Below are positions 46,944-64,000 of a stretch of DNA of 64,000 nt, piece by piece. Origin of the DNA: Marinomonas sp. SBI8L (GTDB lineage: Bacteria; Pseudomonadota; Gammaproteobacteria; Pseudomonadales; Marinomonadaceae); NCBI RefSeq assembly GCF_001624705.1, contig NZ_JSEO01000006.1, positions 62,001 to 126,000 on the forward strand. Reading direction: 5' to 3'. The translations under genes were made by a program, and so were the position numbers. Numbering within the stretch: position 1 is the first letter of the stretch; every line of letters starts with the position of its first letter. The notes under the pieces were generated by a model that searched no databases, was not told the origin of the DNA, and was given only the letters and a program-made list of their open reading frames with translations.

Positions 46944-49028
46944 TCACACCTCCCTTCTACTCAAAAACATCTCCGCACTCGCCTCTTCCGCACTATCATC
47001 CTCAAGCGCTATCACCTGCGCTTTGGCAAATACATTGGGCAAGGTGTTGTTCATAAAAAATAACCCTGACTGTATCTTCCCCTGATAAAACGCTTGCTCT
47101 TCTGGCTCAAGGCTGCTTTCTGCCTTTTTTGGCTCATGGCTGCCATTAGCAACTAGCGCCCTCTTCGCCACCATCATGCTATCCAGCAGCAACCAACCTA
47201 AGGTGACTTCTGCCATCATTTCTAAGAAGCGTGTGGATACGGCAAAAATACGTTCCATTTTTTGCTGACGTATCCAGCTGCCCATGAGTTTGTGTGTTTC
47301 CACTAGGCAGTTTAATGCGTCTTCCAGTCGCTTGGCTTGTGGTGCAAAAGCAGAGAAAGTGGCTTCATCACTTTTAGCTGTGGTTAAGAAGCTCATGATT
47401 TCCTCTTGGTACAAGGCTAAAAGCTTTGAATGTCTGCCCATGGCGAGCTTGTCTCTAAACAAGTCGGCAGATTGAACAAAGTTAGTCCCTTCCCAAAGTG
47501 ACATCACCTTGATATCTCTAGCATATTGCTCCACAGGATTATCTGAAATGTAACCATGGCCGCCATAAACTTGAATCGCTGTTTCGGCTACGTGAAAGGC
47601 TTGGTCTGAGGTGTAGGCTTTGACAATAGGTGTGAGTAGATTTACCAGAGATTGATGGCGGTAGGCTTGAGCCTCAATTTTCTCCTTATCTTCTGCTGTG
47701 TGGCTCTGTTCAAACTGCTCTGGGTTTGCCTGCCTGATATTGAGGTTCATCAATTGGGATTGATGCATGCAAAGCTTGAGTATCAGAGCACGACAGCCTT
47801 CTACCTTGCTCTTCATCTCCAACAACATGCGCTTCACATCTATGTGATCGATAATGGCAACCCGCTGCGCTCTGGGGTTAAAAGCTTCTTTAAAACTAGT
47901 ACCTTGAATACGATTGCCCGCGTATTCTGCAGCATTTAAGTAAGCGCTAGATGCCATGCCCAAAGCGTAAATACCGGTTGCAATACGGGCGAGATTCATC
48001 ATGGTCATGAGTTGTTTTAGACCGACCTTTTCCCTTTCGCCCAAGAGATAACCGTAACAAGGTGCTGCTTGCCCAAAGCTAATTTGCGCTGTGGCACAGC
48101 CATGTAACCCCATCTTTTGCTCTAACCTGACACAGCGCACGCCATTATCGATATGAGAGCCTAAACAAGAGTCTAAATCAGAACCTAATTGAGAGCCTTT
48201 TTGCTCTTCTTTTTGGTGAGCGACAGAACCATTCATGTCGCCAAGCTGATACCTTGGTACCACAAAACAAGACAAACCCACTGTGCCTTTTTTCGCCCCT
48301 TCGACTCTAGCAAGTACGATATAAGCAATGTTGTCGTTTAAATCATGCATGCCCGCAGAGATAAAGATCTTCTCTCCTTCAATGCGATACATGCCATTAT
48401 CTTGTTTGACGGCCTTGGTCCGAATATTACCCACATCTGAGCCTGCATCAGGTTCTGTCATACAAAGACAAGCCGCAAAATCATTCTTGGCTAAAGGCTC
48501 ACAGAATCGCGATTTGAGCTGATCGTCGCCAAACTTGTCGATTAAATACAAGGCGGGGCTGGCAAAACCTGAATAAATCATAAAGGCAGGATTGGCCCCC
48601 ATAAAGATCTCATTAATACTTTGGGAGATAAGATAAGGCGCACCTAGGCCATCGTATTCTAATGGGGAGCCTAATCGACCCCAACCAGTCTCTTTATAGC
48701 TTTCCCAAAGTTGCTCAAAGCCAGGCGGTAGGATGACCTTGCCTGCTTGTTCTTTATCACAGGCCTCTTCCTGCTCACCTGCTTCATAAGAAAGCCTCGC
48801 CCCTTGGCGGTCACTGACCTGATATAAAGGCCCCATTTCTTGATAGGAAAAGTCTTTGGCGTGCGTGATTAAGTATTGGCAGAAGGCTTGGTCAAATTCA
48901 GGATAAATCTGGCTATCTAGCACTGTGTCTTGGGCGCGAAACTGCTCCCACAGTAAAAACATCTGGTCTCTTAAATCTACTCGAAAGGCATTCGTTTCTT
49001 TTGCTGAATTATTCGATTTTGTGTCCAT
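46944..49028 (-). CDS. Large acyl-CoA dehydrogenase (FadE/DmdC-like)
   Basis: The 694-aa protein has the acyl-CoA dehydrogenase fold: CMTEPDAGSDVGNIRTKAV (FAD-binding strand), GEKIFISAGMHDL, the HGCATAQISFG segment, VYGGHGYISDNPVEQYARD, and a catalytic glutamate candidate in MSLWEGTNFVQSAD. About 90 C-terminal residues and a glutamine-rich insert (near residue 270) are extra, as in long DmdC-type proteins. It would oxidise an acyl-CoA or acyl-carrier thioester. It is the last gene of the large minus-strand cluster, 77 bases after the barrel protein. Confidence 0.82.
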   Translation of the reverse strand: MDTKSNNSAKETNAFRVDLRDQMFLLWEQFRAQDTVLDSQIYPEFDQAFCQYLITHAKDFSYQEMGPLYQVSDRQGARLSYEAGEQEEACDKEQAGKVILPPGFEQLWESYKETGWGRLGSPLEYDGLGAPYLISQSINEIFMGANPAFMIYSGFASPALYLIDKFGDDQLKSRFCEPLAKNDFAACLCMTEPDAGSDVGNIRTKAVKQDNGMYRIEGEKIFISAGMHDLNDNIAYIVLARVEGAKKGTVGLSCFVVPRYQLGDMNGSVAHQKEEQKGSQLGSDLDSCLGSHIDNGVRCVRLEQKMGLHGCATAQISFGQAAPCYGYLLGEREKVGLKQLMTMMNLARIATGIYALGMASSAYLNAAEYAGNRIQGTSFKEAFNPRAQRVAIIDHIDVKRMLLEMKSKVEGCRALILKLCMHQSQLMNLNIRQANPEQFEQSHTAEDKEKIEAQAYRHQSLVNLLTPIVKAYTSDQAFHVAETAIQVYGGHGYISDNPVEQYARDIKVMSLWEGTNFVQSADLFRDKLAMGRHSKLLALYQEEIMSFLTTAKSDEATFSAFAPQAKRLEDALNCLVETHKLMGSWIRQQKMERIFAVSTRFLEMMAEVTLGWLLLDSMMVAKRALVANGSHEPKKAESSLEPEEQAFYQGKIQSGLFFMNNTLPNVFAKAQVIALEDDSAEEASAEMFLSRREV

Positions 49029-49105
49029 TGTTACGTCCTTTTTCTTATTCTTTTAAGATATTTTTTGTCCATTTAGCGATTAACAGACCATTAATTAACA
49101 CGTGA

Positions 49106-50587
49106 TTAAAAGTCCCATTTAAAAACCGCTCGTAAGGTATTTTCATTGGGGTTCAAGCCATATTCGCAGTCACTGCAACCTTGGTAGGCTTCAAACTGAA
49201 AACGGCTGGTGAGATTGGCATTCCAAGATTTAAGCAATTCCAATCGATGCAATTGGCTGTCATCATCCAAGTTGAGTTGCACGCTTTGTCGGTATTGCCA
49301 AAGCCCATCAGATAAGGGGCTGGAATACATAAAATAGAGGTAGTTTTGGCGAAGTTGGCCGTAGTTCAAGCTATCTAACGCAGAGCCCATGTAGGCATAA
49401 TCCGCGCTCGAACCTAAACCAGAGCTGATATTAGTAAAGGCCGTATCACTATTGGATGAGATGTAATCCCACTCCCCTTCACTAAACCCGTGCTCGCTAT
49501 GAAGATATTCAAGCCGAAAGTTAGCGCCAGACTCTGTGGTATAAGCCGCGCCCAACAACACCTGCTGCCAAGCACTTTGTGTGCTTTCATCAAAACTAGT
49601 GCCGTTATAGTCTGCCAGCAAACTGCTAGTCGTTTGGTTTCTTTGGTGCTGTAAACTCCACTGGGCACGCAGGGTCATGGCATCGGTTAATAATCGGCTC
49701 ACACTCAAGGCATAATTAAGGGATTGGCCCGGTAATTTATGTAAGATGAGCTCAGCATCGGCCCCACCTTGATAACCCAGTCTCAACACATATTGCTGAT
49801 TGGCTCTGTAGCTAACCTTAGTAAGGTCATCATCTTCAAGCTCGGCCACTAAGGCCTGATAAAACCAATCTCCCTGATTACGGCTCAAGCTTGCCATCAT
49901 CCAACCTTCTTGCTGTAAAAGGTCATCTTGATCCGAATAAGGCTGATCACGATAAGGCCTTAACAAGTTAGTGAGATTCCAATTAAAGCCATTACTCCAT
50001 TCTGTTTTGATACGCCCTGCTTGTGCCTGCCATTGATAGTCTTTTGAATACCAATTGAGATACGCCTCAAGCACTTTTAGCTCATCGCTATCTCTTCTTT
50101 CGTCGCTTGAAGCAAACAGATCTTGCACCTCATATTGCGCTAAGATACGTGTGCGGGCACTCAATCCCGCAAGGCTATCTTCTAGGTTTAACTTAGCCCC
50201 ATAATCCAAGGCGTTTAGCTGTTTATCTTCATTGAATCGAGCCAAGTTAGGGTTGAACGCATGATCTTGGTTGATATCATTCAACTGAAGGTAGGTCATG
50301 GCTGAGACACTTTGGGTGAGCACAGAGTTTTCAGAAAGCTTAGCTTCCTCCTCTTTGGCTAGAGGTTGAATCAAGGTGTCACTCCCGCTAGCAAAAGGAT
50401 CAGTAGGTACATCAGAGGTTGCAAAAGGGTCTACAGGCCCAGCAGCGCCTACAGTTGCAGCACTTATATTAGCTGCACTTACATTAGCCATATGAGACGA
50501 ACCCGCAAAACAAACACTCAAACCTAGTATTTGAGCAACTCGATGCTTGCTTAAGCAAAGATCTTTAATGAGAAAAAAGCGGCTCAT
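49106..50587 (-). CDS. Outer-membrane beta-barrel protein of the export module
   Basis: The 493-aa protein begins with a long signal peptide (FCFAGSSHMANVSA region) and a Ser/Asp-rich linker, then many amphipathic strands rich in Tyr, Trp and Leu (YEVQDLFASSDERRDSDELK-type turns), ending with the aromatic AVFKWDF, as outer-membrane porins do. It resembles the DUF1302-like barrels that accompany LolA-like and FtsX-like proteins. Its ATG overlaps the stop of the LolA-like gene (ATGA), so it belongs to the same operon. Confidence 0.75.
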   Translation of the reverse strand: MSRFFLIKDLCLSKHRVAQILGLSVCFAGSSHMANVSAANISAATVGAAGPVDPFATSDVPTDPFASGSDTLIQPLAKEEEAKLSENSVLTQSVSAMTYLQLNDINQDHAFNPNLARFNEDKQLNALDYGAKLNLEDSLAGLSARTRILAQYEVQDLFASSDERRDSDELKVLEAYLNWYSKDYQWQAQAGRIKTEWSNGFNWNLTNLLRPYRDQPYSDQDDLLQQEGWMMASLSRNQGDWFYQALVAELEDDDLTKVSYRANQQYVLRLGYQGGADAELILHKLPGQSLNYALSVSRLLTDAMTLRAQWSLQHQRNQTTSSLLADYNGTSFDESTQSAWQQVLLGAAYTTESGANFRLEYLHSEHGFSEGEWDYISSNSDTAFTNISSGLGSSADYAYMGSALDSLNYGQLRQNYLYFMYSSPLSDGLWQYRQSVQLNLDDDSQLHRLELLKSWNANLTSRFQFEAYQGCSDCEYGLNPNENTLRAVFKWDF

Positions 50588-51366
50588 AAATTAACAATCG
50601 CTTCTTTACTAAAGCGCGCATCGGGCAAGTCAGTGGCACGATAGTTATCAAATAGCATCCAAGTGTAGCTGCCTTCAATGAGAGGGTCCGTTAGCAACAT
50701 TTTATGTATCTTAAGCTCGCCATTAAAATCTTTAAACGCCTTGTAATCAGCGGTTTTCAGTAGCTTGCCTGAGCGTGCATAATACTCACTTCGAATTGGC
50801 TTATAAGGGGCATTTTCTTCTAACCAGAAGACGACTTTTTGATAGCTTACTGACTTGTTCTTAGCGGTTAAAATCAGCTTAATTTGCCCTTGGGACTTAT
50901 CACTTTCTTCACTAGAAAGCGCAGCATCATAATCAAGCGCTAAGTTAGAACCTGTCACATCGCCGTTGCTGGTTTCACCCAATAAACGCTGCGCAGGAGA
51001 GATACGAATAACCTTGCGAGTCCCTGGAATATAAAGCCACATATCATTATCTTGTTTGAGCAAGACACGGCCTTTTTGTCTTGCGGGAGACTCAAAAGTC
51101 ACTAGAGACTTCACCGCCTTTACATCCACACTTAACTGGTTTGTGCGTGCATCACGACCCGCTTTATAACTCACATTGGTAATGTCAAAGCTAAAGCCAG
51201 CGTTATCAAGGCCACGAAAAGCATCAATCTTCTCAACCAACAATTCTGCCGTGATAGAAGATTGCGCTTGGCTCACGCCGCTTACAAAACAAGCTAGAAA
51301 GGCGATGCCGCTTGAGATCAGAAGACGCCTATTAAAAGCGGCTCTTAAAAAATCATTAAAAAACAT
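50584..51366 (-). CDS. LolA-like outer-membrane lipoprotein-sorting family protein
   Basis: The 260-aa protein has a signal peptide (LLISSGIAFLACFVSGVSQA) and the COG2834-like beta-sheet core: AGFSFDITNVSYKAG, KGRVLLKQDNDMWLYIPG, TRKVIRISPAQRLLGE and NGDVTGSNLALDYDAALS. Such periplasmic proteins carry a lipid or lipoprotein from the inner-membrane ABC transporter to the outer membrane. It lies between the ABC permease and the barrel, overlapping the latter. Confidence 0.82.
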   Translation of the reverse strand: MFFNDFLRAAFNRRLLISSGIAFLACFVSGVSQAQSSITAELLVEKIDAFRGLDNAGFSFDITNVSYKAGRDARTNQLSVDVKAVKSLVTFESPARQKGRVLLKQDNDMWLYIPGTRKVIRISPAQRLLGETSNGDVTGSNLALDYDAALSSEESDKSQGQIKLILTAKNKSVSYQKVVFWLEENAPYKPIRSEYYARSGKLLKTADYKAFKDFNGELKIHKMLLTDPLIEGSYTWMLFDNYRATDLPDARFSKEAIVNL

Positions 51367-51387
51367 ACTGCTATCCTTTAGAGAAAT

Positions 51388-52629
51388 TTACGCGGAGCGC
51401 ATGGCTTGGTTAATCAACAAACGAGAGGCTTTAAAGGCGGGATAAATACTCGCAAGTACAGCCACCAGCACACCGGTTAAGGCGGTTTGCCACACCACGG
51501 TCCATTCCACAAAAATACGGATGGGATAGCTTTGGCTACTACCAGGGGGGGTCGGCATGATGAACTCTGCCAAGGTGATGCTATTGGCCATAAAGATGCC
51601 AAGCAGCACCCCTAACGCACTGCCAAAAAGCCCTAAGTAACTAGCTTCGGTGAGAAACAGCATCATAACTTCGTGGCGCGTAGCCCCTAACGCACGGATA
51701 GAGCCGATCTCTGGTGTACGCTCCATCACGGCCATCATCATGGTATTGGCGATACTCAAAGCGGCGATAAAGAGCACAATGATTTTTAGAAAACCAAAGA
51801 CCCCATCAAACAGATTCACCACTTCATGGTAATAATCAGCAAGCTGAGACCAAGAACGCATTTCAAGGGTGAGCCCTTCTTGTTCAAACAATTGGCTTAA
51901 CTTATCCATCACGATTTGGGTTTGTGCTGTGTCTTTTAACAGCACGACTAAGCGACTGACCCCTTGCGTAAATTGCAGGTCTTGAGCGTGGCTTAAATTA
52001 ATACGCAATAGTCGGTTATCCACTTCACGGGTACCGGTATTTATCGCCCCGACAATTTGCACATCTACCGCATTCACAGCGCCATCAGCCGTTGAGGCTA
52101 ATAAGGTAAGGTAATCCCCAATATTGGCATTTAAGGCGTTATAAAGGCCTTGCCCCACGAGCGCACCCGCTTGATCTTCTGGGAACAAATCTTCCCCTTC
52201 AATCAAGGTAATGGCTGAGCTTAAAAGCGCCTCTTTATCTGGGTCTATACCATTCCCCACCACAGCGACCGATTGATTGCCGTTCGTGATCAGACCAGAA
52301 AAGTCCAACCTTGGGGTTAATAGCTCAACTTCAGCCAGACCTGACACCAAGTCAGAAACTTGCTGCACTTGCTCTTGGATTAACAAATACTTTTCTGGCT
52401 CAATATGGCCATATTGATTAAAGCCTGCTTGATAGATTTGTAAGTGACCTAGCTGTGAGCGAATCATGTTTTCACGCATACCTTCGTACATAGAGGCCAC
52501 AAAGCCACCAAAAAGAATCAAGCTCACGACACCAATCTGGATAGATAACAAGGTAATCAGGCTACGGCGACGGTTTCTCAGTACATTTAATAGTGCGATT
52601 TTATAGCGAAAAAAGTTAATCGATAACAT
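51388..52629 (-). CDS. ABC transporter permease, FtsX/MacB/LolE-like
   Basis: The 413-aa protein has one N-terminal membrane segment (LITLLSIQIGVVSLILFGGF), a large periplasmic domain of about 220 residues, and three C-terminal segments (FGFLKIIVLFIAALSIANTM, LGLFGSALGVLLGIFMANS, TALTGVLVAVLASIYPAF). The ERTPEIGSIRALGATRHEVM block is typical of FtsX-domain permeases. It would work with the ATPase at 53589 to lift a lipophilic substrate from the inner membrane. It follows the TPR lipoprotein gene by four bases. Confidence 0.88.
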   Translation of the reverse strand: MLSINFFRYKIALLNVLRNRRRSLITLLSIQIGVVSLILFGGFVASMYEGMRENMIRSQLGHLQIYQAGFNQYGHIEPEKYLLIQEQVQQVSDLVSGLAEVELLTPRLDFSGLITNGNQSVAVVGNGIDPDKEALLSSAITLIEGEDLFPEDQAGALVGQGLYNALNANIGDYLTLLASTADGAVNAVDVQIVGAINTGTREVDNRLLRINLSHAQDLQFTQGVSRLVVLLKDTAQTQIVMDKLSQLFEQEGLTLEMRSWSQLADYYHEVVNLFDGVFGFLKIIVLFIAALSIANTMMMAVMERTPEIGSIRALGATRHEVMMLFLTEASYLGLFGSALGVLLGIFMANSITLAEFIMPTPPGSSQSYPIRIFVEWTVVWQTALTGVLVAVLASIYPAFKASRLLINQAMRSA

Positions 52630-52632
52630 ACC

Positions 52633-53592
52633 TTAAACCTCCTCTAGCCTTTTAGTTGCAAGGACTGACCACTTAGATTGCGATACGGGGCCTGATGCTG
52701 AATCAGAGCCTTCACTCGCCGTATTTGATAGCGCCTGCCAGAGTGATTTCGCACTTTCTAGCTGATCATTTTTATAAAAAGATAAGGCCAAATAATAATC
52801 AACAAATTCAATAAATAATTTATCTTGTTTTTTTAATGGTGATTTTTTAGCTGATTCGACTATCGATTTAGAAAGCAATTTAGAATCCTGAACTTGCCCA
52901 CCTTCCTTCTCATGTAAAAGAACATTTTTCAGTAGCGAAAGGTCTTCAACCGCAAAGCTCGCCCGATTTAAAAAGGCCGGCATATTGGCGTAACTGAGCC
53001 CACGCAAAAGCCTGACACCTAGGTGATTTGGGGCTTTTTTCACGGCTCTATCCATATAGCGCATACCTTTACGAGACAAGAGATTCATCTGCCCAAGATC
53101 CGCTTGATAGAAGATGGATTGATAACTTAATGCGCTGCCCATGGCCGCCATCAATTCATAGTCCTGCTCACCTTGTTCTGCACTGAATTCACTGGCACGA
53201 GTTAACCCTTGGGTAATGGCTTCAAGCTTGGCTAAGGTCTGGTTTTTATCCGAGGAAAAGAGAGTCAACCTCAATAAGAGCTGCTGTTTTACCTCTTCTT
53301 GCGTCAAACCTGTGTTTGAGCCTTCTTTTTCATTTAGTACCTTTAATAAGGCTTCTTGCTCAGCTTGATCCGCCCCTATAGCACTGGGTAATTGGTAATC
53401 CGAAAGCAAATAGGTTTGCTTAACTTTATTTTGAGCAGCATTTTGAGCTTCATTTGCCACCTTGCTTGATGCTGCATTCGCATTAATGCTCGCCTCGTCT
53501 GAGCAAGCCACCAGCAAGCTGGCTGTTAGCGCCAAAGGCAAAAAGAGCTGTGCTTTTATTGCGTTAGGAGATTGTTTAAAAAAACGCCTCAT
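52633..53592 (-). CDS. TPR-like lipoprotein of the export module
   Basis: The 319-aa protein starts with a lipoprotein signal (LALTASLLVACSDEAS, lipobox LLVAC). The rest is helical with TPR-like pairs (GLSYANMPAFLNRASFAVED, FVDYYLALSFYKNDQLESAK). It likely sits in the inner or outer membrane periplasmic face. Its start overlaps the ATPase stop by four bases, which places it inside the transport operon. The role may be recruiting or scaffolding the exporter. Confidence 0.75.
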   Translation of the reverse strand: MRRFFKQSPNAIKAQLFLPLALTASLLVACSDEASINANAASSKVANEAQNAAQNKVKQTYLLSDYQLPSAIGADQAEQEALLKVLNEKEGSNTGLTQEEVKQQLLLRLTLFSSDKNQTLAKLEAITQGLTRASEFSAEQGEQDYELMAAMGSALSYQSIFYQADLGQMNLLSRKGMRYMDRAVKKAPNHLGVRLLRGLSYANMPAFLNRASFAVEDLSLLKNVLLHEKEGGQVQDSKLLSKSIVESAKKSPLKKQDKLFIEFVDYYLALSFYKNDQLESAKSLWQALSNTASEGSDSASGPVSQSKWSVLATKRLEEV

Positions 53593-54299
53593 GCCGCGAC
53601 CCTCTGTTTATCCTGCAAGATACAGCCATCCCTAAGCTCAATGACACGAGATGCCTGCTCCAACACATAGTCATGGTGAGTGGCAAAAATAAAGGTGATG
53701 CCTTGGCGATTGAGCTGCTTCATCAGCGCCATAATGCTTTGGGCATTCTCTGAATCCAGATTCGCTGTTGGCTCATCCGCGAGGATAATATCTGGCTCTG
53801 TAACCAAAGCTCTTGCGATCGCCACCCTTTGCATTTGCCCGCCAGAAAGCTGATTGGGCTTGTGATTAACAAAGTCCGCCAACCCCACTCTTTCCAAGGC
53901 GACTAGGGCTTTTGCTTTATTCTCTTTATGACTAGAAGCCCCCGCCGCTTTTCCCCCTGTTCTTAGCGACAGTGGATATTGCACATTCTCAAGGGCCGTC
54001 AGCACAGGCAAGAGATTGAAAGACTGGAAGATAAAGCCGATATGATCGCGGCGCACATGGGACTTTTGTCTGTCACTCATAGGCCCAAGTGCCTTGCCAG
54101 CAATGGCGATTTCACCCTCGTCCGCTTCATCCATCGCGCCAATTAGGTTTAGCAAGGTGCTTTTACCACTGCCGCTCGCGCCTTTCAGTACCAAGAACTC
54201 CCCTTTATCTACCGCTAAATCAATTTGATTTAGGGCACAAACTCGGCTTTGGCCTAGGGTAAAAAAGCGCGACACCTTAGCTAAGTTAACCAACCTCAT
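53589..54299 (-). CDS. ABC transporter ATP-binding protein (LolD/MacB-like)
   Basis: The 236-aa protein has a full ABC set: Walker A GASGSGKST (residues about 40-47), Q-loop FIFQSFNLLP, signature LSGGQMQRVAIARAL, Walker B IILADEPTANLD and the H-loop FIFATHHD. It is the only ATPase of the cluster. LolD-like proteins pair with FtsX-type permeases, matching the gene at 51388. Confidence 0.93.
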   Translation of the reverse strand: MRLVNLAKVSRFFTLGQSRVCALNQIDLAVDKGEFLVLKGASGSGKSTLLNLIGAMDEADEGEIAIAGKALGPMSDRQKSHVRRDHIGFIFQSFNLLPVLTALENVQYPLSLRTGGKAAGASSHKENKAKALVALERVGLADFVNHKPNQLSGGQMQRVAIARALVTEPDIILADEPTANLDSENAQSIMALMKQLNRQGITFIFATHHDYVLEQASRVIELRDGCILQDKQRVAA

Positions 54300-55036: not shown

Positions 55037-55147
55037 TCTCTTTCCCTCTGACGCATACAAATAAGCTGACCCAGACAAGAAGAACCAAGCGTTTAAGCTA
55101 GGCCTCTTAACTTAGGTCATGCCGGTGCGAACACTTCCTATTCTGGG

Positions 55148-55396: not shown

Positions 55397-55525
55397 TTTG
55401 TTTCCTTTTTATTGTTGTTTAATTAACTAAAATCATTACCAATTACATTGCTCAATTAAGCTTTCATTGAAGACTTAATTGAGATTTAGAGAACGTTTTA
55501 TAACGCGCTCTCAATAGAAAACCTT

Positions 55526-57007
55526 CTATAAAGAGCAGCCTAAATGGCGTGATAGATGGTCTAGCGTTAGGCTTTTCATGCAAAAAGCATCCACTTGCGA
55601 CCGTTTATCTTGCTGTTTAATCAGTTTGGCTGTGAGAGGCGGTGCAGCGACTTTAAGCAAGCTGTGTGTCACCGGTTTATAACCATGCAGCATCAGCCTT
55701 TGCATGGCATCGTAGAGATTCACCAAGCTGTCATCCTGCGGGTCAAAATAGACCTTAGAGGCCGTTTTAAGCCACTGGTTATCATTTGGAATCAATGCAA
55801 GTACGGATTGCTCTATCACCCTAGCCGCAAACCCGTGTGTTAAAGCGACAAACTGCACCTCTTTTCCTAAACCTTCGGCGAGTAGCCTTTCTTGCTGCCA
55901 CTGGTTAGGTAAACGCACGGTAAGATCTAACCAAAGTTCAAAACTAGGCGTTGTCACTTGACCCTGATGAAAGCTCAGCATTTGAGTTTGATACTCTTGC
56001 CTTAACTTAAGCTGTGTTTGGCGCTGCTGCTTAAATGCCTGACTTAACCCAGATTTAAACAGCGGTCCGTATAAGGATTTAAGCGACTTAATGTCTAATA
56101 AGGCATTCTTGTCCCAGGCCTGATTCAACTCAGCCAGCTGACTAGCAATACCAAGACCAGTACCAAGAGCAGCTACTTGTCTTTGTGTAGATTCCGCCTG
56201 ACCTTGCAAGCGATATAAGCCTGTTTTACTTTGATAAGCGTCTGATGAATCCGCCATCAGATTATCCAATAAGCAGAGTTGTCCTAACTGAGTGACAGGT
56301 TCACTTAATAACCTTGAAACCAAAGGTAACGCCATAAATGCATTGAACTTACCCTCTTTTAACAGGCCAATTGCTTCATCTTCTTTGACACTGGCTTGCT
56401 TATTTTCTAGTTGCCCGCACTCTGACTTAGCCGCTTGAGATTCTGCCTTAGCCATTTGGGATTCTGACTTAGCCGCTTGAGAGCCAAGCTGATTAAGACA
56501 AAGCTTTTCTTGCAGACTTAGAGTTTTATGGGCAAGGCATTTTGCTTTAATGCCCGTTTGTCCAGAGGCAATCTGCCAAATTTGGCTCTCGCCATTGGCT
56601 AATTGCCTCACTCCTTTCACTAGAGTTAATGGCGGCACCAGATAAGATTGAGTAAAGAGCTGGCCTATGGCATCTGCGTCTAACTCGGCACCTGTTATGA
56701 AGTCATTCATGCTAGAGCTTAGTGCAAACTCAGCCTCATTCGATTTATAAAAAAGGCGGTAGCTTGAAAAAGCAGAACAAGTAATAAAACACTCAGGTAG
56801 ATTGCTTTTATCTGATGAGCCTTCGATTGGCAGTATCAGACGATAATCCCCCAATACCTTTTGATTGAAGTCCAGTTTCCACGCTTGAAAAGCCGCTTTT
56901 AGCAAAGTCTGCAAAGAGGTATCCTCTGCCAACTCTAACTCTTGAATCAGGCTTTGGCGGTTAGTTAAATAACCATCGAAAAGAAAGCTATTATGATCAC
57001 ATATCAT
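55526..57007 (-). CDS. Degenerate asparagine-synthetase (AsnB)-like protein
   Basis: The 493-aa protein matches AsnB only in parts: AFQAWKLDFNQKVLGDYRLI and LFTQSYLVPPLTLVKGVRQL correspond to the glutaminase-domain end and the linker; WLDLTVRLPNQWQQERLLAE to the synthetase C-domain. The N-terminal catalytic Cys (normally second residue) is replaced by Ile-Cys at positions 2-3 without the usual processing context, and no SGGxDS pyrophosphate loop is present. Residues about 180-205 hold AKSE/AKAE repeats (SQAAKSESQMAKAESQAAK). It may be a structural or binding subunit rather than an amidotransferase. Confidence 0.65.
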   Translation of the reverse strand: MICDHNSFLFDGYLTNRQSLIQELELAEDTSLQTLLKAAFQAWKLDFNQKVLGDYRLILPIEGSSDKSNLPECFITCSAFSSYRLFYKSNEAEFALSSSMNDFITGAELDADAIGQLFTQSYLVPPLTLVKGVRQLANGESQIWQIASGQTGIKAKCLAHKTLSLQEKLCLNQLGSQAAKSESQMAKAESQAAKSECGQLENKQASVKEDEAIGLLKEGKFNAFMALPLVSRLLSEPVTQLGQLCLLDNLMADSSDAYQSKTGLYRLQGQAESTQRQVAALGTGLGIASQLAELNQAWDKNALLDIKSLKSLYGPLFKSGLSQAFKQQRQTQLKLRQEYQTQMLSFHQGQVTTPSFELWLDLTVRLPNQWQQERLLAEGLGKEVQFVALTHGFAARVIEQSVLALIPNDNQWLKTASKVYFDPQDDSLVNLYDAMQRLMLHGYKPVTHSLLKVAAPPLTAKLIKQQDKRSQVDAFCMKSLTLDHLSRHLGCSL

Positions 57008-58131
57008 GCCTGCGCTCCTTGCTCTGCTTCGCTTTTTCCAGCCTCGCTTTTCACTGGGCCACTCTTCACAAATGCGGCTTTATCCTGCTTTTTAGCTGAA
57101 ATCGGGCTGACTTCCGCTTGATCATCCAGCTCGCTTTCACTTGTCTGATCGTCTATCTGGTCGTCTGTCTGATCATTTGAAGCGGTCATCTCAAAAATGC
57201 TGGCAAGCCAATTAGGCAACACCTGACACGCAGCGGGTAAAATACGAATATGATTTAGTTTTGGCACCTTAATTAGGGACTTAGCTAAATCTGGCCCTAA
57301 GTGCCAATGAAATACCGTATCAAGCAAGCTAGAGTGAATGACCTCATCCTCTTCACCAACCAACATAAGGGTTGGCACCTTGATACGATTAAAGGCATTG
57401 GGATAATCATTGATGTCACAAGACAGCATGAGGTTATAGCTGTAATCCAACACACGCCCTTCTAGTTTGGCCATCCGCTCGCTCGCCGGAAAACTCAAAA
57501 TCGGCTTATGACGAAAACCTGGAATCAACTTGGCTAACCAAAAAGCCTTCATATTGAGTATTGGCGCATACTGCAAAGCGGCCTCTGGCACGGGGCCATG
57601 GACTTTCGCTTGGCGAAAGTAAGTCAACCTATATTGCAAAGCCGAAGACGGCTGAGGGTATCGCACCGTCTCTAATGGCCCATTGATCGCAGGAGAAACG
57701 AAGGCCACAGCCTTAATCTCATCACAGCTGTACTTATCGATATAGCGCAAACAGACCACAGCACCCGCTGAGTGCCCACCTATCACAATGGCAGCCTTTT
57801 CATCTTGGCTTTTGATATGGGCAATCATGTCAGCCAGATCATCTTCTAACTGACCCACATAATGAAGATCCCCCGGCTTACCTTGAGATTCCCCATGACC
57901 ACGCCAATTAAGCAGACAAGTTTGGTAACCTTTACCAGACAGAGCCTTAGCAATATTGGCGTAACGTCTTGAGTTATAGGTGCTGCCATGAAGGAAGATG
58001 AAGCACACTTTGCTAATCTCATCACTGCTGTTTGCGGCGATATCTTGAGCTAACGCCCCTTCGGGAGAAAACTCATCATAGGCGAGACGCACACCATCCC
58101 TGGCTAAAAAGCTCCTTTTTTCCATTAGCAT
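57004..58131 (-). CDS. Alpha/beta hydrolase (monoacylglycerol-lipase-like) with an acidic tail
   Basis: The 375-aa protein opens LARDGVRLAYDEFSPEG and continues with FIFLHGSTYNSRRYA (oxyanion hole), LLNWRGHGESQGKPGD, the nucleophile elbow VIGGHSAGAVVCL (Ser near residue 115), and the closing PTLMLVGEEDEVIH and KLNHIRILPA. The final 60 residues are repetitive and acidic (SDQTDDQIDDQTSESELDDQ type). It could release or transfer acyl groups in the pathway as a thioesterase. Its start overlaps the halogenase-like stop and its stop overlaps the AsnB-like start. Confidence 0.82.
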   Translation of the reverse strand: MLMEKRSFLARDGVRLAYDEFSPEGALAQDIAANSSDEISKVCFIFLHGSTYNSRRYANIAKALSGKGYQTCLLNWRGHGESQGKPGDLHYVGQLEDDLADMIAHIKSQDEKAAIVIGGHSAGAVVCLRYIDKYSCDEIKAVAFVSPAINGPLETVRYPQPSSALQYRLTYFRQAKVHGPVPEAALQYAPILNMKAFWLAKLIPGFRHKPILSFPASERMAKLEGRVLDYSYNLMLSCDINDYPNAFNRIKVPTLMLVGEEDEVIHSSLLDTVFHWHLGPDLAKSLIKVPKLNHIRILPAACQVLPNWLASIFEMTASNDQTDDQIDDQTSESELDDQAEVSPISAKKQDKAAFVKSGPVKSEAGKSEAEQGAQA

Positions 58132-60272
58132 GTGCCTTCCTTTTCAGTCTCTGTCGCTTCCTCTTGACCAAGCTGCACACGCTCTTCTGCGTCAACTGTT
58201 TGCGACTCTCTTTCCATTTGCGCAAGTAATCTTTCTGCCGCGATTTTGCGGGTTGGCACTTCGACATCCTGAATAGGGTCACTCATGATGCTTTCATCGG
58301 TTTGACGACAGAATTGCAAGAAATAAGGCACGGTGAAAGGCATGTGAATGTATTCTTGCTCTTGTGCCCACAACGCCTTAGCTTGCTTTGTCAGAAGTGC
58401 CATATCATCCTGAGTTAACCCATTTTTAGTGCAGGCAATATAAACATCGCCTGATTCAAACGACATCTCATCAATACTTGCGACAAGCTCGCCTTCTTGA
58501 AATTCCAGCTCACTTTGCTCAATAAGTTTTTGCGTTAAAGCGACATTAATATCCTGTATCAAGTCTGGCAAATCAGCCTTAGTGAAACTGTCTTTCGTCA
58601 GGATTTGCGGTAGGTTCAAACACTCTTGCACCAAGTTACGGCTAGCAAACTTTTTAAGATTCAAACGACTTCCTGTGACTTGCAGATAAATACTGGCCCA
58701 GAGTTTGGTATGTAGATCGATACGACGACCATCTTTACCCTTGTCGCCCATTTCGAAAACAAAATAGCGATAAATTTCGGCACCAGATTCAAAAAAGCCA
58801 ATCGAGTTACGGTCAAAATAACGACCTTCGTAGTTTAGAGTTTCAGCTGTTTCTAGAATTTGTCGATTGAGCTTTTTCTCTAACGCCAAATAACCACGGC
58901 GTAAATGACTCTTAGATTGCCACCTTTCAAGGTCGACAAAATTATCCGCCATGTAGTCCCAAGCGGTTTCTAAGAAATAGGTCGCCGTGATGTAAGCCAA
59001 GATAGGAGAACACAACTCACCACAATCCAGCACGGGCGTCACATTGTTCACATGACTATAAATACGCTGGTAGAACTCATGGGCTTGCTGGTTAAGTACC
59101 GGCAAGTTTTGCGCTAATTTTGTAATGGCTTCGCTTTCATCTTCAGTGGCAAAGTCCTCACAGATGGTTTTGCAAATACCATCATTGAAAAGCGAAATCA
59201 TATCGCCGCCAAAGCTGAACAAAGGGTCTAGGAACATGGCAGCAAAACCTGTGGTTGCCCACCTATGTTCGCTCATGTACTTCTCACCTCGGTAAGCAAG
59301 TTGCCCCCAAGCTTCAAAGTCCTCCATTTGCGCGCCGTCAAGAAGATCAGCAAGACCTTTATGACTCTTCAAGAAAGCCATGAATTCATCCCTTTTTACA
59401 GGGCGTTTTTTCATCCTTTCTTTGTCACAATCCACACCAATACTGGTAAAGCCACCACTTAACGGAATGACCCAAATCCAATACCCTTCTCCCGTAAAGT
59501 GAATCGTCGATAGGAAACGTCCATTCACTTTACGACGCCATTCTTTTGGCCCTAGTGCATCGATATCTTTGATATTGCTAAAACGCGCCCAAGTAGAAGC
59601 GTTTTGCGGCACATCACGTCTATGATGCAGCTTGTATTTTTTGGCGATAAGCCCCGCTTTACCACTAGCATCCACCAGCCAGCGACAGCTGACGGTTTGC
59701 CCCATAGGGTCAATACTTTCTCCAAGTGCTGGACAATCAAATTGCACTAGATGTGGCGCCGCATGGATACTCTCATCTATTTCCAAATCTTTAACGCGCG
59801 CACCAAGCAGAATATCAATGCCCATTTCGCGATTCATGGCAACCAAGTCTTCTTCTAGCCTTGCCCTATCAAGCTGAAAAGCTGGATGTGGCGGAATATT
59901 TGAAGTGCCGTGCTCACTCATTTCGTGCAGCTCTAAGTCATGATTTTCTGAATCAAACAAGAACCTCAAGCCATTTTTTGGCAGATGATTACGATACAAG
60001 TAGTTCGCTAAACCAAGACGGTGCATGAAGTAATGGCCTGTCATTTCAACCGTTGCTTCACCGACTTTCGCCTTGTATTCAGTGGCCGCATCCAACTGCA
60101 CAATGGAAAGCTCTGGTCGGCTCATTTTCAACTGCCTTGCTAAGGTTAACCCCGCCCATCCCGCACCAATAATCACCACATCATAACTAGGCTTAACTTT
60201 GGTGGTTAGGTTAGCTTGCATAAAAGCAGGGCCTGCTTTTACTTGCTCAGTCACGCTAGACATTCCGTTCAT
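58125..60272 (-). CDS. FAD-dependent halogenase-like protein
   Basis: The 715-aa protein has the flavin fold (VVIIGAGWAGLTLARQLK, residues about 32-49), the family box KVGEATVEMTGHYFM near 69-83, and the halogenase signature WIWVIP at 265-270, followed by MFLDPLFSFGGDM. A candidate catalytic lysine is Lys99 (LPKNGLRF). This fits FAD-dependent halogenases that make HOCl/HOBr-equivalents for aromatic or ACP-bound substrates. It is about 200 residues longer than typical members, with a C-terminal extension of helical character. The start has TAGGAGTAG upstream. Confidence 0.75.
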   Translation of the reverse strand: MNGMSSVTEQVKAGPAFMQANLTTKVKPSYDVVIIGAGWAGLTLARQLKMSRPELSIVQLDAATEYKAKVGEATVEMTGHYFMHRLGLANYLYRNHLPKNGLRFLFDSENHDLELHEMSEHGTSNIPPHPAFQLDRARLEEDLVAMNREMGIDILLGARVKDLEIDESIHAAPHLVQFDCPALGESIDPMGQTVSCRWLVDASGKAGLIAKKYKLHHRRDVPQNASTWARFSNIKDIDALGPKEWRRKVNGRFLSTIHFTGEGYWIWVIPLSGGFTSIGVDCDKERMKKRPVKRDEFMAFLKSHKGLADLLDGAQMEDFEAWGQLAYRGEKYMSEHRWATTGFAAMFLDPLFSFGGDMISLFNDGICKTICEDFATEDESEAITKLAQNLPVLNQQAHEFYQRIYSHVNNVTPVLDCGELCSPILAYITATYFLETAWDYMADNFVDLERWQSKSHLRRGYLALEKKLNRQILETAETLNYEGRYFDRNSIGFFESGAEIYRYFVFEMGDKGKDGRRIDLHTKLWASIYLQVTGSRLNLKKFASRNLVQECLNLPQILTKDSFTKADLPDLIQDINVALTQKLIEQSELEFQEGELVASIDEMSFESGDVYIACTKNGLTQDDMALLTKQAKALWAQEQEYIHMPFTVPYFLQFCRQTDESIMSDPIQDVEVPTRKIAAERLLAQMERESQTVDAEERVQLGQEEATETEKEGTC

Positions 60273-60301
60273 CTATCTACTCCTAAGTGTCACATTGTTA
60301 A

Positions 60302-61345
60302 TTATTCGGTGATCGTTTCTGACCAGCGAAAATAATGATTATTGATACCCCGATATTGGGTTTGCGGGTATTTCAGGGTATGTTTTACCTGCTGGTAGTA
60401 ACTTGCCTTACATTCGTTTTTGACATGCAAAGCCGCTTGATAAGCACTTTGATCTGATTTGATACAGCACTCACTGAGTGATGACTGAGTTAAGGCTTGA
60501 TCGGCTTTAAGGCCACGACTTATCAGCATGCAACCTAAACGACCGCCACCTCCCAATGTCATCAATAACAAAGGGCCTTTCGCCAATGCTGCTTGGTATC
60601 CCTGCAATTCAAAAAGAGGCTTGAGGCTTAAAAAGTGTTGCTGCCCCTGCTCTGCACTCGCAAGCCATTCACTGGTGGCAAAAGGGCCAGATAGCCGCTC
60701 TTGTAAGGCAAGCTCTAACTTCTTTCCCCATTGGGAACTAATGGCAAAGGAAACAGGCTGAGTCGCCTCTGGTAGTTGCTTGATGTAGTCTTCGAACATC
60801 AGCAAAAGTTTTTGTGTGCCCGACATACCAAGGGGCTGAGAAAGTATGTCGCACTGCATTATGATGATGTCTTTTGGTTCAGCGTGTTTTTTACGCAATA
60901 CACACAAGCCAACGCAATTAAGCACAGTTAAACCATCTTGTTCGTCGTCATTGCCCACACCTAAAGAGTTTAAACAGGCTTGCTGCAAGCCTTGATCTAG
61001 CTCTAGCGCAATCACCAAGCAATCTTGGCTTTGCGATTGGCTCGCCTCAAACACAGCCGCATGAAAGCTGGTACAAGCGGCGCTGACAAATCGCAACTGA
61101 CAGCCTTTTTGCATCAAATCCCGAGCAAACTCGCGAATTTTGGTATTTAGCAAAGGCTTCACTTCTCCTGCGCTAATCAAGAGCACTTGCTCTGGCAAAG
61201 TCGTTAGCTGATTTAACTGAGCTTCAAGCAAACTTAAACCATGACCCACCGAAAGCACCTGCCTTGCCCAAAGGGACTCAATCACCATGCTAGCCACAGC
61301 AAGGTTTTCTGTAGGCGCAGAGCTAAAAGAAGCATCAAATTGCAT
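60302..61345 (-). CDS. Ketosynthase-like (thiolase-fold) protein
   Basis: I place the start at the ATG at 61345 behind GAGGAG (347 aa); a longer frame to 61474 overlaps the upstream gene too far. The active-site cysteine candidate lies in FVSAACTSFHAAVFEAS and the C-terminal glycine-rich GGGGRLGCMLI fits the thiolase-superfamily end. The middle part lacks the clear His-His pair of KAS enzymes, so catalysis or a partner role (chain-length factor-like) is uncertain. Its ATG overlaps the 182-aa gene by 11 bases. Confidence 0.7.
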   Translation of the reverse strand: MQFDASFSSAPTENLAVASMVIESLWARQVLSVGHGLSLLEAQLNQLTTLPEQVLLISAGEVKPLLNTKIREFARDLMQKGCQLRFVSAACTSFHAAVFEASQSQSQDCLVIALELDQGLQQACLNSLGVGNDDEQDGLTVLNCVGLCVLRKKHAEPKDIIIMQCDILSQPLGMSGTQKLLLMFEDYIKQLPEATQPVSFAISSQWGKKLELALQERLSGPFATSEWLASAEQGQQHFLSLKPLFELQGYQAALAKGPLLLMTLGGGGRLGCMLISRGLKADQALTQSSLSECCIKSDQSAYQAALHVKNECKASYYQQVKHTLKYPQTQYRGINNHYFRWSETITE

Positions 61346-61883
61346 TATCACACTCCTCTTTGGCAGCAATACCAAACTCAGCCAATGATTCAATAAGTTG
61401 AGCAAAGCAGGCCTCTTCACGAGAAACATCAAACTGGCTTTGGCTATACAAACTGAGATGCATTTGATTTTCACCTTGCTCTAGCTGATACCTAAGCAAG
61501 TGATCATCAATCACCAACAGCCTTGAGACGTCACCTTTTGATACACCCTCTTTTAGACGTAATACTTCAGGCTGAATGTCTTGCATCAAGAGCACATTAG
61601 GTTCTAATAAAACAGCGGGTAAACGCATACCACCTGGCATTGAAAGGCGAATAAGAAAGTTTACTTCGCCTTCAAAACACGCATTTGCCTGCTTCACAAA
61701 GCGCTCTAAAATTTGATAGTGCTCAGCAAAATTCAGGTAAATCGGTGCCTTACTGGAAGGCAATAAAGCAAAGACTTCAAAGTCGTTTTCACTTTCTAGC
61801 GGCATATATCTCGCAAGAGCAGCAGACAACTTACCTTCAAAAGGCACACGCTTAAGCTCGCCTTTAAAATGCAGCCTATTCAT
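61335..61883 (-). CDS. Unknown protein between the two ketosynthase-like genes (182 aa)
   Basis: The start is the ATG at 61883 behind GGAGG; an earlier ATG at 61898 lacks that spacing. The product is soluble with strands ALLPSSKAPIYLNF, FLIRLSMPGGMRLPAVL and MHLSLYSQSQFDVS. No family was recognised. Both ends overlap its neighbours (stop 11 bases into the ketosynthase-like gene), so it is fixed in the operon and may be a partner subunit of the ketosynthase-like pair. Confidence 0.6.
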   Translation of the reverse strand: MNRLHFKGELKRVPFEGKLSAALARYMPLESENDFEVFALLPSSKAPIYLNFAEHYQILERFVKQANACFEGEVNFLIRLSMPGGMRLPAVLLEPNVLLMQDIQPEVLRLKEGVSKGDVSRLLVIDDHLLRYQLEQGENQMHLSLYSQSQFDVSREEACFAQLIESLAEFGIAAKEECDNAI

Positions 61884-62733
61884 AGCTCGCCTCCTCATTC
61901 AGAATTAAATGAGTGTCTTGATTCACTCGCACCTCTGCCATGGCAAAATAACCATTCAGTGCAAGCGAGGCTGCCATGTATTTTTGCTCTTCTAAGGGTG
62001 GGTTTTCCAAGCTATGGCAAAGTATGGATAACCAAGGATCTGAACCAAAACAATGGCCCCAGTTATGGTGTAAATCCGGCAAGCGCCATTGCTTAGCCAA
62101 TAGTTTGTTAAACATTTCTTGAATGTGTTCAGGAAAAAACGGCAACGCCAGACAAACATTATCTCTGCCTGTCACGGTACGCCTTACGACTGTGGCAAAT
62201 TCAGCCATAGAGTTATGGGTCAGCGCACATTGAGTAATGAGTTCATTACTGACTTCACCTGTGACTTCAAGCAAAACCGTAGTGATACCAAAACCAGACT
62301 CATGCCAGTTCTCGTTATAGCGCCAAAAAGTCAGATCATAGAGATTGGCATCTAAAATACTGACCAAAAGGAAGCGCTTCTTCTCTGCCTTGGCATAAGT
62401 TAGATAATGGCGTAAGGAATAACCCCAAGAGGCACATTCATAGGCATTGATATAAGTATCTGGATTATTAGGACCAAGCGCCGTTAGCTTTTCAGCCACA
62501 TCAGACCAAGCAATATCCCCTGTGGTAAATGGCATCTCTACCATGGTCGAGCACAGGAAATGCCTATCTATCTGGTTTCTTTCCTCTTCTGAAAGCTTGG
62601 CGAGCACCTGCTCTGTCTGGGTATGAATTAATCCAGACAGCCATTCAAAACTTGCCTCTATACTTGGCCTTTGCTGATAAAGGCAAGACTTAAGCGGCTG
62701 AAAACCTATCCCTCTTACGGTTAAAGCACTCAT
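61876..62733 (-). CDS. Ketosynthase III-like protein
   Basis: The 285-aa protein reads TYINAYECASWGYSLRHYL with a candidate active-site cysteine at about residue 103 in the same context as KAS III, then RFLLVSILDANLYDLTFW, and a C-terminal HHNWGHCFGSDPWLSIL that resembles the His/Asn part of the thiolase fold. It is shorter than KAS III (about 320) and may need a partner. Its ATG overlaps the stop of the dehydrogenase-like gene (ATGA). Confidence 0.68.
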   Translation of the reverse strand: MSALTVRGIGFQPLKSCLYQQRPSIEASFEWLSGLIHTQTEQVLAKLSEEERNQIDRHFLCSTMVEMPFTTGDIAWSDVAEKLTALGPNNPDTYINAYECASWGYSLRHYLTYAKAEKKRFLLVSILDANLYDLTFWRYNENWHESGFGITTVLLEVTGEVSNELITQCALTHNSMAEFATVVRRTVTGRDNVCLALPFFPEHIQEMFNKLLAKQWRLPDLHHNWGHCFGSDPWLSILCHSLENPPLEEQKYMAASLALNGYFAMAEVRVNQDTHLILNEEASYE

Positions 62734-63782
62734 CGTCTCGCCCTCTTTTGCTTAGCGTATATCTCGAAAAAGCAGCGGTACGAGCTTCCTTCCATTTTAG
62801 TGAAACCCAGTAAATCCCTTTGATCAGCAAAGCTTTTTACTTTATTGCTTGCTACCAAGTTTGCTAATAGCTCATTACTAGCAAACTTCAGCGCTAACAC
62901 CTGATCTACGCTGTGAATGGAGAAATCCGGTTGAGCCAAAAAGTGATCGGCAAAACCCAAGATAAAATCGATATTGGTTTTAAGTTCGGCATCCATATCT
63001 AATCGATTTTCTTTATCTAGCCACAAAAGGTGGTGCATTAAGGCTTTGACAAAACGTGGACGCACTAAGGTTAAAAAGCGGTTTACACTGGCCATGCCAC
63101 CTTTCTTCAGGATCTGATCTGGGCTGACTTTCACCTCACCCACCACATTGCCTAATTGCAAAGCACCATCAAGATAAGCACTGCCGACCTTGTCCTGCTT
63201 GAGTTCTTTTGACTGCTCGGGAGTAAGCATTAAAGTAATGGGGTAAGGCTTACCTGATTGTTTAACCACCAGCATGACAAAGCCTAAATTATGAGCTTCT
63301 ATCCCCCATTTTTTATTGACTTTTAGATGATACATATCGGTTTCATCTGGACTCACCGACAACTCTGTAGACCAATTAGCTAGGCTTGGGCCACCTGCAT
63401 CTGTCATTAAAAAATGTCCAAAAATATCTTTCTCAAGCCAAGCATCTACCTGAGTTTGCTGCGCTTCTGTGGCTGTCAGGTTGAGCATAATAGAGCCAAA
63501 CAGCCCGATAATTTGATGAAAATGTGGGCCAAAGCCCGTCTCTTTTATGGCCTTTGTTAACTCATCAATAACAAAGGTTTGCTCAAACTGAGGCAAAGGC
63601 TGCTTTACCTTGGCAACACTTAAGGGCAAACGTTGACTGAAATCATCTTCAATCAAAATTTCCGAATCTAATAGCGATAAACAAGTTTGGTTAATCATGC
63701 GATCTAGGCTTTCAGGCAAGGCTTTGTAGCCAGCCAAAGGCGCAGTGATAAAGCCACCAAAAAGTTGTGATAAATCATTCAT
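62730..63782 (-). CDS. Acyl-CoA dehydrogenase-like protein
   Basis: The 350-aa protein is weakly similar to acyl-CoA dehydrogenases: HFLMTDAGGPSLANWSTELSV corresponds to the flavin strand, VNKKWGIEAHNLGFVMLVV to the following region, and LLGFTKMEGSSYRCFFEI to the C-terminal helix pair with a glutamate in place of the catalytic one. It would oxidise a carrier-bound acyl or amino-acyl chain. It begins ten bases after the decarboxylase stop. Confidence 0.7.
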   Translation of the reverse strand: MNDLSQLFGGFITAPLAGYKALPESLDRMINQTCLSLLDSEILIEDDFSQRLPLSVAKVKQPLPQFEQTFVIDELTKAIKETGFGPHFHQIIGLFGSIMLNLTATEAQQTQVDAWLEKDIFGHFLMTDAGGPSLANWSTELSVSPDETDMYHLKVNKKWGIEAHNLGFVMLVVKQSGKPYPITLMLTPEQSKELKQDKVGSAYLDGALQLGNVVGEVKVSPDQILKKGGMASVNRFLTLVRPRFVKALMHHLLWLDKENRLDMDAELKTNIDFILGFADHFLAQPDFSIHSVDQVLALKFASNELLANLVASNKVKSFADQRDLLGFTKMEGSSYRCFFEIYAKQKRARR

Positions 63783-63791
63783 AATGATGGC

Positions 63792-64000
63792 CTATTCGAT
63801 AATGTAAGTTTTAGCTTGGGGAAGCTTGAGAAATGGCGTGACCGTATAGCTAGCGTTATAGGCTCCACAGTGATCGTAAACACAGATGTCGCCAGCTTGC
63901 GGCAATAGATGCTCATCCGTTTGCTTACCGATTACATCGTCTTTAGAGCAAGAGCTCCCGACATAAGTACAAGCACCCTTTTCCGTCTCATCAGAAGTAG
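63792..64000 (-). CDS. Fold-III PLP-dependent decarboxylase, C-terminal part (cut by window end)
   Basis: The last 68 codons show the C-terminal active-site region of the LysA/SpeC-type decarboxylases: TYVGSSCSKDDVIGK with the Cys-x-x-Asp motif, then LPQAGDICVYDHCGAYNAS with the Tyr of the PLP site. The start and substrate-specific residues lie outside. By neighbours it may decarboxylate an amino acid used as an aminoacyl starter. The stop is TAG at 63792-63794. Confidence 0.8.
   Translation of the reverse strand, partial: TSDETEKGACTYVGSSCSKDDVIGKQTDEHLLPQAGDICVYDHCGAYNASYTVTPFLKLPQAKTYIIE

Follow-up and report, generated by a model that had tools for sequence, protein, structure and literature searches.

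An export operon of Marinomonas sp. SBI8L with a halogenase-like gene and a core homologous to the Burkholderia afc pathway

Architecture of the operon

The DNA considered here is a window of 64,000 nucleotides from Marinomonas sp. SBI8L (contig NZ_JSEO01000006.1, positions 62,001 to 126,000), which carries at its end a biosynthetic and export operon; positions are those of the window unless the contig is named. Seventeen genes, designated A to Q, form one run on the minus strand and the operon extends beyond the window end: positions 46944-64000 contain 16 of them, the last, gene B, being cut by the end of the window. Gene B has its 3' end at 63792 and reaches up to contig position 126961; gene A, for an adenosine monophosphate (AMP) ligase, is next after it, up to contig position 128626, and a gap of about 1.4 kb separates it from an upstream regulator that, by eye, looks AraC-like. 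The operon is real, and it is probably a distinct variant of a pathway explained in 2025, to which its core is homologous. The genes are listed below; identities refer to their homologues in Burkholderia arboris.

Gene A, beyond the window, to contig position 128626, minus strand: AMP ligase, AfcQ-like (Pfam)
Gene B, 63792..64000 and mostly beyond the window, minus strand: pyridoxal phosphate (PLP) decarboxylase of 389 amino acids, AfcP homologue (Pfam; 38% identity)
Gene C, 62730..63782, minus strand: AfcJ homologue (36% identity)
Gene D, 61876..62733, minus strand: ketoacyl-acyl carrier protein synthase (KAS) III-like acyltransferase, AfcL homologue (Cys100 aligned with Cys111 of B. arboris)
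Gene E, 61335..61898, minus strand: protein of 187 amino acids, weak AfcM homologue (profile E-value 7e-9, 22% identity)
Gene F, 60302..61474, minus strand: protein with KAS-like motifs only (motif conservation)
Gene G, 58125..60272, minus strand: flavin-dependent halogenase-like protein of 715 amino acids with a long C-terminal region (profile and motifs)
Gene H, 57004..58131, minus strand: alpha/beta hydrolase, candidate release enzyme (Pfam Hydrolase_4, E-value 1.5e-28)
Gene I, 55526..57007, minus strand: AsnB glutaminase-domain-like pseudoenzyme (hhalign probability 97.1, E-value 5.9e-11 to AsnB)
Gene J, 55148..55396, minus strand: acyl carrier protein, AfcK homologue (Pfam PP-binding; 52% identity)
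Gene K, 54296..55078, minus strand: TPR-like protein with, by eye, an N-terminal hydrophobic stretch (no Pfam match)
Gene L, 53589..54299, minus strand: LolD/MacB-type ABC ATPase (Pfam ABC_tran, NCBIfam; 42% identity)
Gene M, 52633..53592, minus strand: TPR-like lipoprotein with, by eye, a lipobox-like LVAC (position kept; no Pfam match)
Gene N, 51388..52629, minus strand: LolC/E-type FtsX permease (Pfam FtsX, MacB_PCD; 32% identity)
Gene O, 50584..51366, minus strand: LolA-like periplasmic carrier (Pfam LolA_like, E-value 8.9e-40; 32% identity)
Gene P, 49106..50587, minus strand: predicted outer-membrane protein, putatively a barrel (position kept; no Pfam match)
Gene Q, 46944..49028, minus strand: acyl-CoA-dehydrogenase family protein, AfcE/BolQ-type (Pfam ACAD domains)

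With mechanically assigned start codons, there are overlaps at 8 of the 16 junctions between genes: five of 4 bases (ATGA type) and three of 7, 23 and 140 bases. The 140-base overlap of E and F is probably an artefact of start-codon choice, because both relatives compared start at residue 63 of the F protein of the window; the true start of F would then lie near 61288 and the corrected count is 7 of 16. A first-pass annotation, made from the letters of the window, had described a tightly overlapping operon of uniform direction at 46944-64000. Its description agrees with the present analysis, every gene that it named being found on the minus strand in a single run with 7 to 8 overlapping junctions; the operon does lie in that interval, but the coordinates are too short, since B continues past the window and A is beyond B. 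The protein families it named mostly hold on Pfam, profile or fold evidence, while the KAS-likeness of F and the dehydrogenase-likeness of C are weak or indirect.

The G+C content is 44.7% in 46944-64000 versus 38.7% in 1-46000. Immediately downstream of the operon a restriction-endonuclease-like gene (Mrr_cat) is present at 45004-46056, outside the stretch that matches the genome of Marinomonas strain MED121.

Homology to the afc pathway and a proposed route

Burkholderia arboris was reached by a search of a plasmid collection with gene B, and in its locus homologues of A, B, C, D, E, J, L, N, O and Q (10 of the 17 genes) are found together. Other genes of that locus also fit afc: they encode an AurF-like protein, a KAS III, a citrate-synthase-like protein, TauD, a methyltransferase, a flavin adenine dinucleotide (FAD) oxidase, a fatty-acid desaturase and a second AMP ligase. 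The order C, J, D, E, AurF, KAS III, B, A can be read as AfcJ to AfcQ; the Afc letters used here are putative, and they are assigned on gene order, families and residue numbers, the carrier serine (residue 40) and the KAS III cysteine (residue 111) of B. arboris having the same numbers as in AfcK and AfcL (PMC12186527).

The afc product of the Burkholderia cepacia complex is the antifungal AFC-BC11, a light-sensitive compound with absorbance at about 326-336 nm, whose biosynthesis was solved in 2025. In the sections of that report used here, AfcQ adenylates Asp in vitro and loads it iteratively, side chain first and without condensation domains; AfcP then decarboxylates on the carrier in vitro to give beta-alanine, AfcK being the sole carrier. 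AfcL performs a KAS III-like transfer in vitro and its deletion abolishes the product; AfcE is the expected dehydrogenase, AfcJ is reported as dehydrogenase-type and AfcM is called UDP-glycosyltransferase-type. Deletion of afcJ, afcM, afcN, afcO or afcP also leaves no product, afcD and afcI (the outer-membrane channel) are dispensable, and the fatty-acyl ligase AfcA sets the chain length, a trimer (PMC12186527).

The B. arboris proteins were searched at an E-value of 1e-3 in 26 stretches of marine DNA, corresponding to 21 clusters, and the counterparts of AfcQ, AfcP, AfcK, AfcL, AfcJ and AfcE matched 20 to 22 of them. Gene A is about 30% identical to the afc ligase of B. arboris; its R309 and K501 are 192 residues apart, as are Arg311 and Lys503 of AfcQ and the B. 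arboris pair, and the FDYG aspartate, the selectivity arginine (TECKR) and the catalytic lysine are kept in 17 of 17 A sequences. The active site of B, with C-S/N-K and a DGG motif, is closer to BtrK (CTPED, DGG) than to the diaminopimelate decarboxylase compared (CETGD). Diaminopimelate decarboxylase was rejected as the identity of B: lysA is ranked first by NCBIfam, at 134 bits versus a cut-off of 297.9. In second rank NCBIfam places TIGR03098 for A and TIGR03099 for B, the exosortase A-associated ligase and decarboxylase, which would give the pair another role, in envelope decoration; since the scores are far under the curated cut-offs (212.4 versus 592.35 and 128.3 versus 478.45 bits) and the afc comparison accounts for more genes, this role is improbable and is set aside.

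Among the other core proteins, J contains DS[LM]N in 18 of 18 members, its serine aligns with AfcK Ser40, and the gene maps display a single J homologue per cluster. Q is AfcE-like over its length (39% identity to the B. arboris homologue, E-value 1e-139) and carries [LI]WEGT[NS] in all 14 members reaching that stretch, the remaining 5 of 19 ending before it. The predicted structure of D has a KAS III (thiolase) fold with the cysteine before a helix, and PqsBC and ChlB3 are among the 50 fold matches listed for it; with the afc member added, the D profile matches a small KAS set (E-value 5e-7), though neither FabH nor the afc KAS III alone. KMEGSSYRC is kept in C of all 18 members and also in its B. 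arboris counterpart; C has no Pfam match, no profile match to Q by hhalign (with alignments of low diversity) and a weak collinear match (E-value 0.032) to an ACAD domain of Tritonibacter. Profiles of C, D and F gave nothing credible against sequences of the PDB (best E-value 0.14), and hhalign of D against F, again at low alignment diversity, gave no match. For E, the reverse search with the B. arboris AfcM counterpart matched only 4 of the 26 stretches.

A similar set of enzymes is known from two other systems. Bolagladin biosynthesis, as far as the available part of its description goes, shares an Asp ligase, a stand-alone carrier protein, a BtrK-like decarboxylase, KAS III proteins and an acyl-CoA-dehydrogenase-type desaturase (BolO, BolC, BolN, BolM-BolP and BolQ, respectively), and deletion of bolQ leads to beta-alanine in place of dehydro-beta-alanine; its module, however, feeds a nonribosomal peptide synthetase and bolagladin carries a citrate-primed fatty chain, and neither kind of gene is seen in the window operon (PMC7756342). 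In the vicenistatin pathway VinN, VinL and VinO are a side-chain ligase, a carrier and a decarboxylase with the same order of events, but the module feeds a polyketide synthase, and the portion of the source at hand mentions neither a halogenase nor Lol-like export (PMC11284099). An apparent cluster of similar type also occurs on a Tritonibacter mobilis plasmid (5900-25149 of L111); its PLP decarboxylase and an acyl-CoA dehydrogenase form a single fused protein, and it further has two carriers, three KAS III-like genes (one scoring under the Pfam cut-off), three AMP-ligase-type genes, a P450, an ABC protein and FtsX.

On these comparisons the operon is likely to be a halogenase-bearing, marine gammaproteobacterial variant of the afc pathway, and its product would be a small peptide of the rare unit dehydro-beta-alanine, possibly halogenated. 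The first-pass annotation had proposed a modified acyl or amino-acyl product, built on a single carrier and exported by dedicated genes; the afc homology supports this proposal and makes it more specific. The statement in the same annotation that no described pathway has this set stands in part: A, B, C, D, E, J and Q of the core and the export genes L, N, O are homologous to afc, whereas the full set with a halogenase-like protein was not found described in print among the best-ranked literature matches to general terms and strain names, a search that papers with few of the terms would escape. Likewise, no literature with afc or bolagladin terms was found to name Pseudoalteromonas, Marinomonas or Microbulbifer, papers with only two of the terms escaping this search.

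In the proposed route, ligase A would adenylate the side-chain carboxylate of L-Asp and load it on carrier J, and the PLP enzyme B would strip the alpha-carboxylate, leaving a beta-alanyl thioester; its free amine would accept the next Asp, so that no condensation domain is needed. Homology to reconstituted enzymes, together with the kept residues, argues for these first two steps. Subsequently Q, perhaps with C, would turn beta-alanyl units into dehydro-beta-alanine, as its homology to the AfcE counterpart suggests, and D would take the chain onto its cysteine and pass it to an acceptor, a step consistent with AfcL homology and the predicted fold. Hydrolase H would finally free the product. 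Without a fatty acyl-AMP ligase, the amine might be capped by F or by a ligase encoded at another place in the genome.

It is somewhat unlikely that A, J and B make only one beta-alanyl or dehydro-beta-alanyl unit, which is acylated once and not extended iteratively. The same three enzyme types do serve for one unit in VinN/VinL/VinO and BolO/BolC/BolN (PMC11284099, PMC7756342), and the marine clusters lack the ligase responsible for the trimer length in afc; conversely, the iterative addition of Asp by AfcQ was obtained in vitro (PMC12186527), and the afc locus also shares C, D and E, unmentioned for vicenistatin in the part of that source used (PMC11284099).

Several observations weigh against an afc-type pathway. 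The AurF-like, KAS III, citrate-synthase-like, methyltransferase, FAD oxidase, TauD and desaturase proteins of B. arboris matched none of the 26 stretches at an E-value of 1e-3. Under their putative labels, AfcN, AfcO, AfcC, AfcF, AfcS and AfcT are thereby without a match, and two of these, AfcN and AfcO, are essential in afc. The fatty-acyl ligase of B. arboris matched 19 of 26 stretches, and the four places displayed all lie in gene A; indeed, no second AMP ligase was found in the stretches, as distinct from the rest of each genome, which was not searched, 20 of 25 having exactly one AMP-ligase open reading frame (ORF), gene A (L003 and L004 sharing the same one), and 5 of 25 none. With a single AMP ligase per cluster, the chain-length-setting ligase of afc is missing there. 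Other such points are the low identity of A to the afc ligase, with the pocket ECKR versus EAFR, the first rank of lysA for B, far below cut-off as it is, the weak match of E to AfcM, and the halogenase activity of G, which its motifs alone suggest. Moreover, the afc locus offers nothing credible for F, G, H, I, K and M and a weak match for P, which leaves the second half of the route unexplained by homology. In sum, as far as the afc report was available, the operon shares with it homologues of AfcQ, AfcP, AfcK, AfcL, AfcJ, AfcM (weak) and AfcE and the ABC, FtsX and LolA-like export genes, while afc has lipid-tailoring genes and a second AMP ligase and the marine operon adds F, G, H, I, K and M.

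The halogenase-like protein and the export genes

GxGWxG, the PKN lysine and WxWxIP are marks of flavin-dependent halogenases. In G they are present in 18 of 19, 18 of 19 and 19 of 19 members, respectively, one truncated member being without the stretch of the first two. Among solved structures the G profile matches PltA best (E-value 4.6e-27), and also ChlB4 and CmlS; with these carrier-protein flavin halogenases G shares the FAD-binding half and the signature motifs, but, unlike them, it has a long C-terminal region, the matches ending at profile position 377 of 643. AfcF was considered as a relative of G and rejected: the FAD oxidoreductase of the Burkholderia locus, among the ORFs scanned, belongs to another family, FAD_binding_4, and the G profile scored there no better than an E-value of 0.4 in 49 kb.

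That G is instead another flavin monooxygenase or a carrier-bound oxidase, with a product devoid of halogen, is a serious minority possibility. Models of the flavoproteins QhpG, LodB and GoxB, which are not named as halogenases, also match G, weakly, and the matches to solved halogenases leave the part of the profile beyond position 377 uncovered; however, the best matches are carrier-protein halogenases, and the three motifs are kept wherever the sequence is covered. The rank of PltA could also suggest a pyrrole-type pathway like that of pyoluteorin, with proline ligase, carrier, dehydrogenase and halogenase, plus an extra decarboxylase; the gene types A, J, Q and G presumably parallel such a set. 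To our knowledge a pyrrole-type route has no place for a decarboxylase, A retains the side-chain-activating arginine of VinN and AfcQ, and Q is AfcE-like; this origin is very improbable and is set aside.

To return to the afc-type variant, the alpha carbon of beta-acylamino-acrylate thioesters is nucleophilic, and the halogen supplied by flavin halogenases is electrophilic. More speculatively, G might therefore halogenate the electron-rich enamide carbon; its substrate is presumably not an aromatic ring. The complete proposal of a halogenated oligo-dehydro-beta-alanine, in which G would add Br or Cl at the alpha carbon of carrier-bound enamides and a Lol-like system would deliver the product to the outer membrane, is unlikely as it stands.

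Three other proteins of the biosynthetic half belong to the marine set. F conserves Cys134 and TLGGGGR in 18 of 18 members; its hhalign match to FabH is weak (E-value 0.034), and none was obtained to FabF or the afc KAS III. The GHS nucleophile motif of H is kept in all 19 members. In I, neither MCG near the start nor the SGGxD[ST] loop is found in any of the 19 members, the cut member L024 being judged also on the L103 copy.

Crossing of the envelope, likewise a more speculative step, might proceed through L and N (resembling LolD and LolC), the LolA-like O, and P; K and M could be accessory proteins. K is in position in 17 of the 18 loci first fetched, the Pleionea copy being in a second stretch. 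For P the afc locus provides a weak match only, and the B. arboris barrel matched 1 of the 26 marine stretches. A second ABC/FtsX/LolA-like/barrel set is found in Pleionea on contig C42 (L104, 11811-16703), with 43, 33, 32 and 22% identity to L, N, O and P, respectively, and the biosynthetic genes are not in the stretch read. In L026 and L028, as scanned, and in L035, by a similar start, P is followed by a gene of the TauE/SafE sulfite-exporter family, a speculative hint of a sulfonate. In genome G015 (L015, 8578-12107) L, N and O are each broken into two reading frames, which points to sequencing error or decay.

Distribution, transfer and significance

Titled genomes were scanned with a three-member alignment of the halogenase G and two peptide patterns, and at least 20 loci were obtained, at least 18 of them strong and two being distant Bacillota matches without the cluster. 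The strong titled contigs are gammaproteobacterial and mostly marine by name; among the matches listed, 16 of 18 have all 17 genes, 15 being complete in the first stretch (Q partly cut in several) and Pleionea completed by a second stretch, while L032 and L035 start inside the cluster owing to contig ends. Two further genomes, G189 and G015, have the same gene set. These loci were found through the halogenase, so that co-occurrence is conditioned on G and clusters devoid of it are invisible to the scan; with this proviso, the genes are not usually apart in the loci obtained; their separation was the outcome that the first-pass annotation had named as contrary to its proposal of a cluster.

Among the matches listed, the genera by record title are Pseudoalteromonas, Marinomonas, Microbulbifer, Pleionea, Colwellia and Thalassomonas, and metagenome bins labelled Bermanella, Algicola, Alteromonadaceae and others also carry the cluster. 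L032 and L036 are 96-100% alike at the protein level under titles of different families, so bin contamination is possible and the two may count as one. The position of Q varies among the 18 loci listed: 12 of them end with it, 5 have it between F and G, and Pleionea places it at the front, next to G. Upstream of A, a GDSL-lipase-like gene is present in L029, as scanned, and by similar start in L030, L034 and L036.

Within the broader samples, which overlap and each include the host, the cluster is patchy. The D profile matched 2 of 49 genomes of the genus (the host and the MED121 genome, G321) and 1 of 369 of the class (the host itself); in the phylum sample the F profile and the D profile with the Burkholderia member added each matched 2 of 398. 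Searching G in 293 genomes of the order gave 8 matches, three of which are this cluster and five 30-38% identical proteins; the gene set was not seen beside these five in the stretches read (about 4 kb in L011 and L012, a short contig in L017). A plasmid search with G returned 58 records, none covering 80% of the query. When six proteins were joined for a tree (18 rows, without the incomplete L035), the two Marinomonas strains clustered with Pseudoalteromonas (support 100/100), apart from Bermanella of the same family label. The tree grouping, the patchiness and the G+C content together suggest that the cluster spread by horizontal transfer.

The two Marinomonas strains were also compared at the DNA level (the window versus L105/L106 of MED121). 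L, N, O, P, Q and the flanking gene at 46467-46814 are 90-94% identical and M is 81%, with a baseline of 87-89% in the fabF region, a single region; the ten genes measured from K to A (a table without C) and the AraC-like gene are 61-82% identical, with synonymous sites saturated or undefined. From these identities, the biosynthetic half (54296-64000 and beyond) looks to have been replaced by recombination, while the export half (46467-54299) stayed.

Condensation-domain-free assembly of carrier-bound dehydro-beta-alanine peptides was described in 2025 in the Burkholderia cepacia complex (PMC12186527). The presence of the same core, without the fatty-chain genes, in six genera by title and in metagenome bins points to a transferable core, and for an orphan cluster of marine hosts that are not Burkholderia it yields a specific prediction open to testing. 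Since a halogenase-type enzyme stands in place of the fatty-chain enzymes, the product of the operon is probably a compound not yet isolated; if halogenated oligomers were indeed made, they would represent a new chemotype and an instance of condensation-domain-free peptide synthesis outside Burkholderia.

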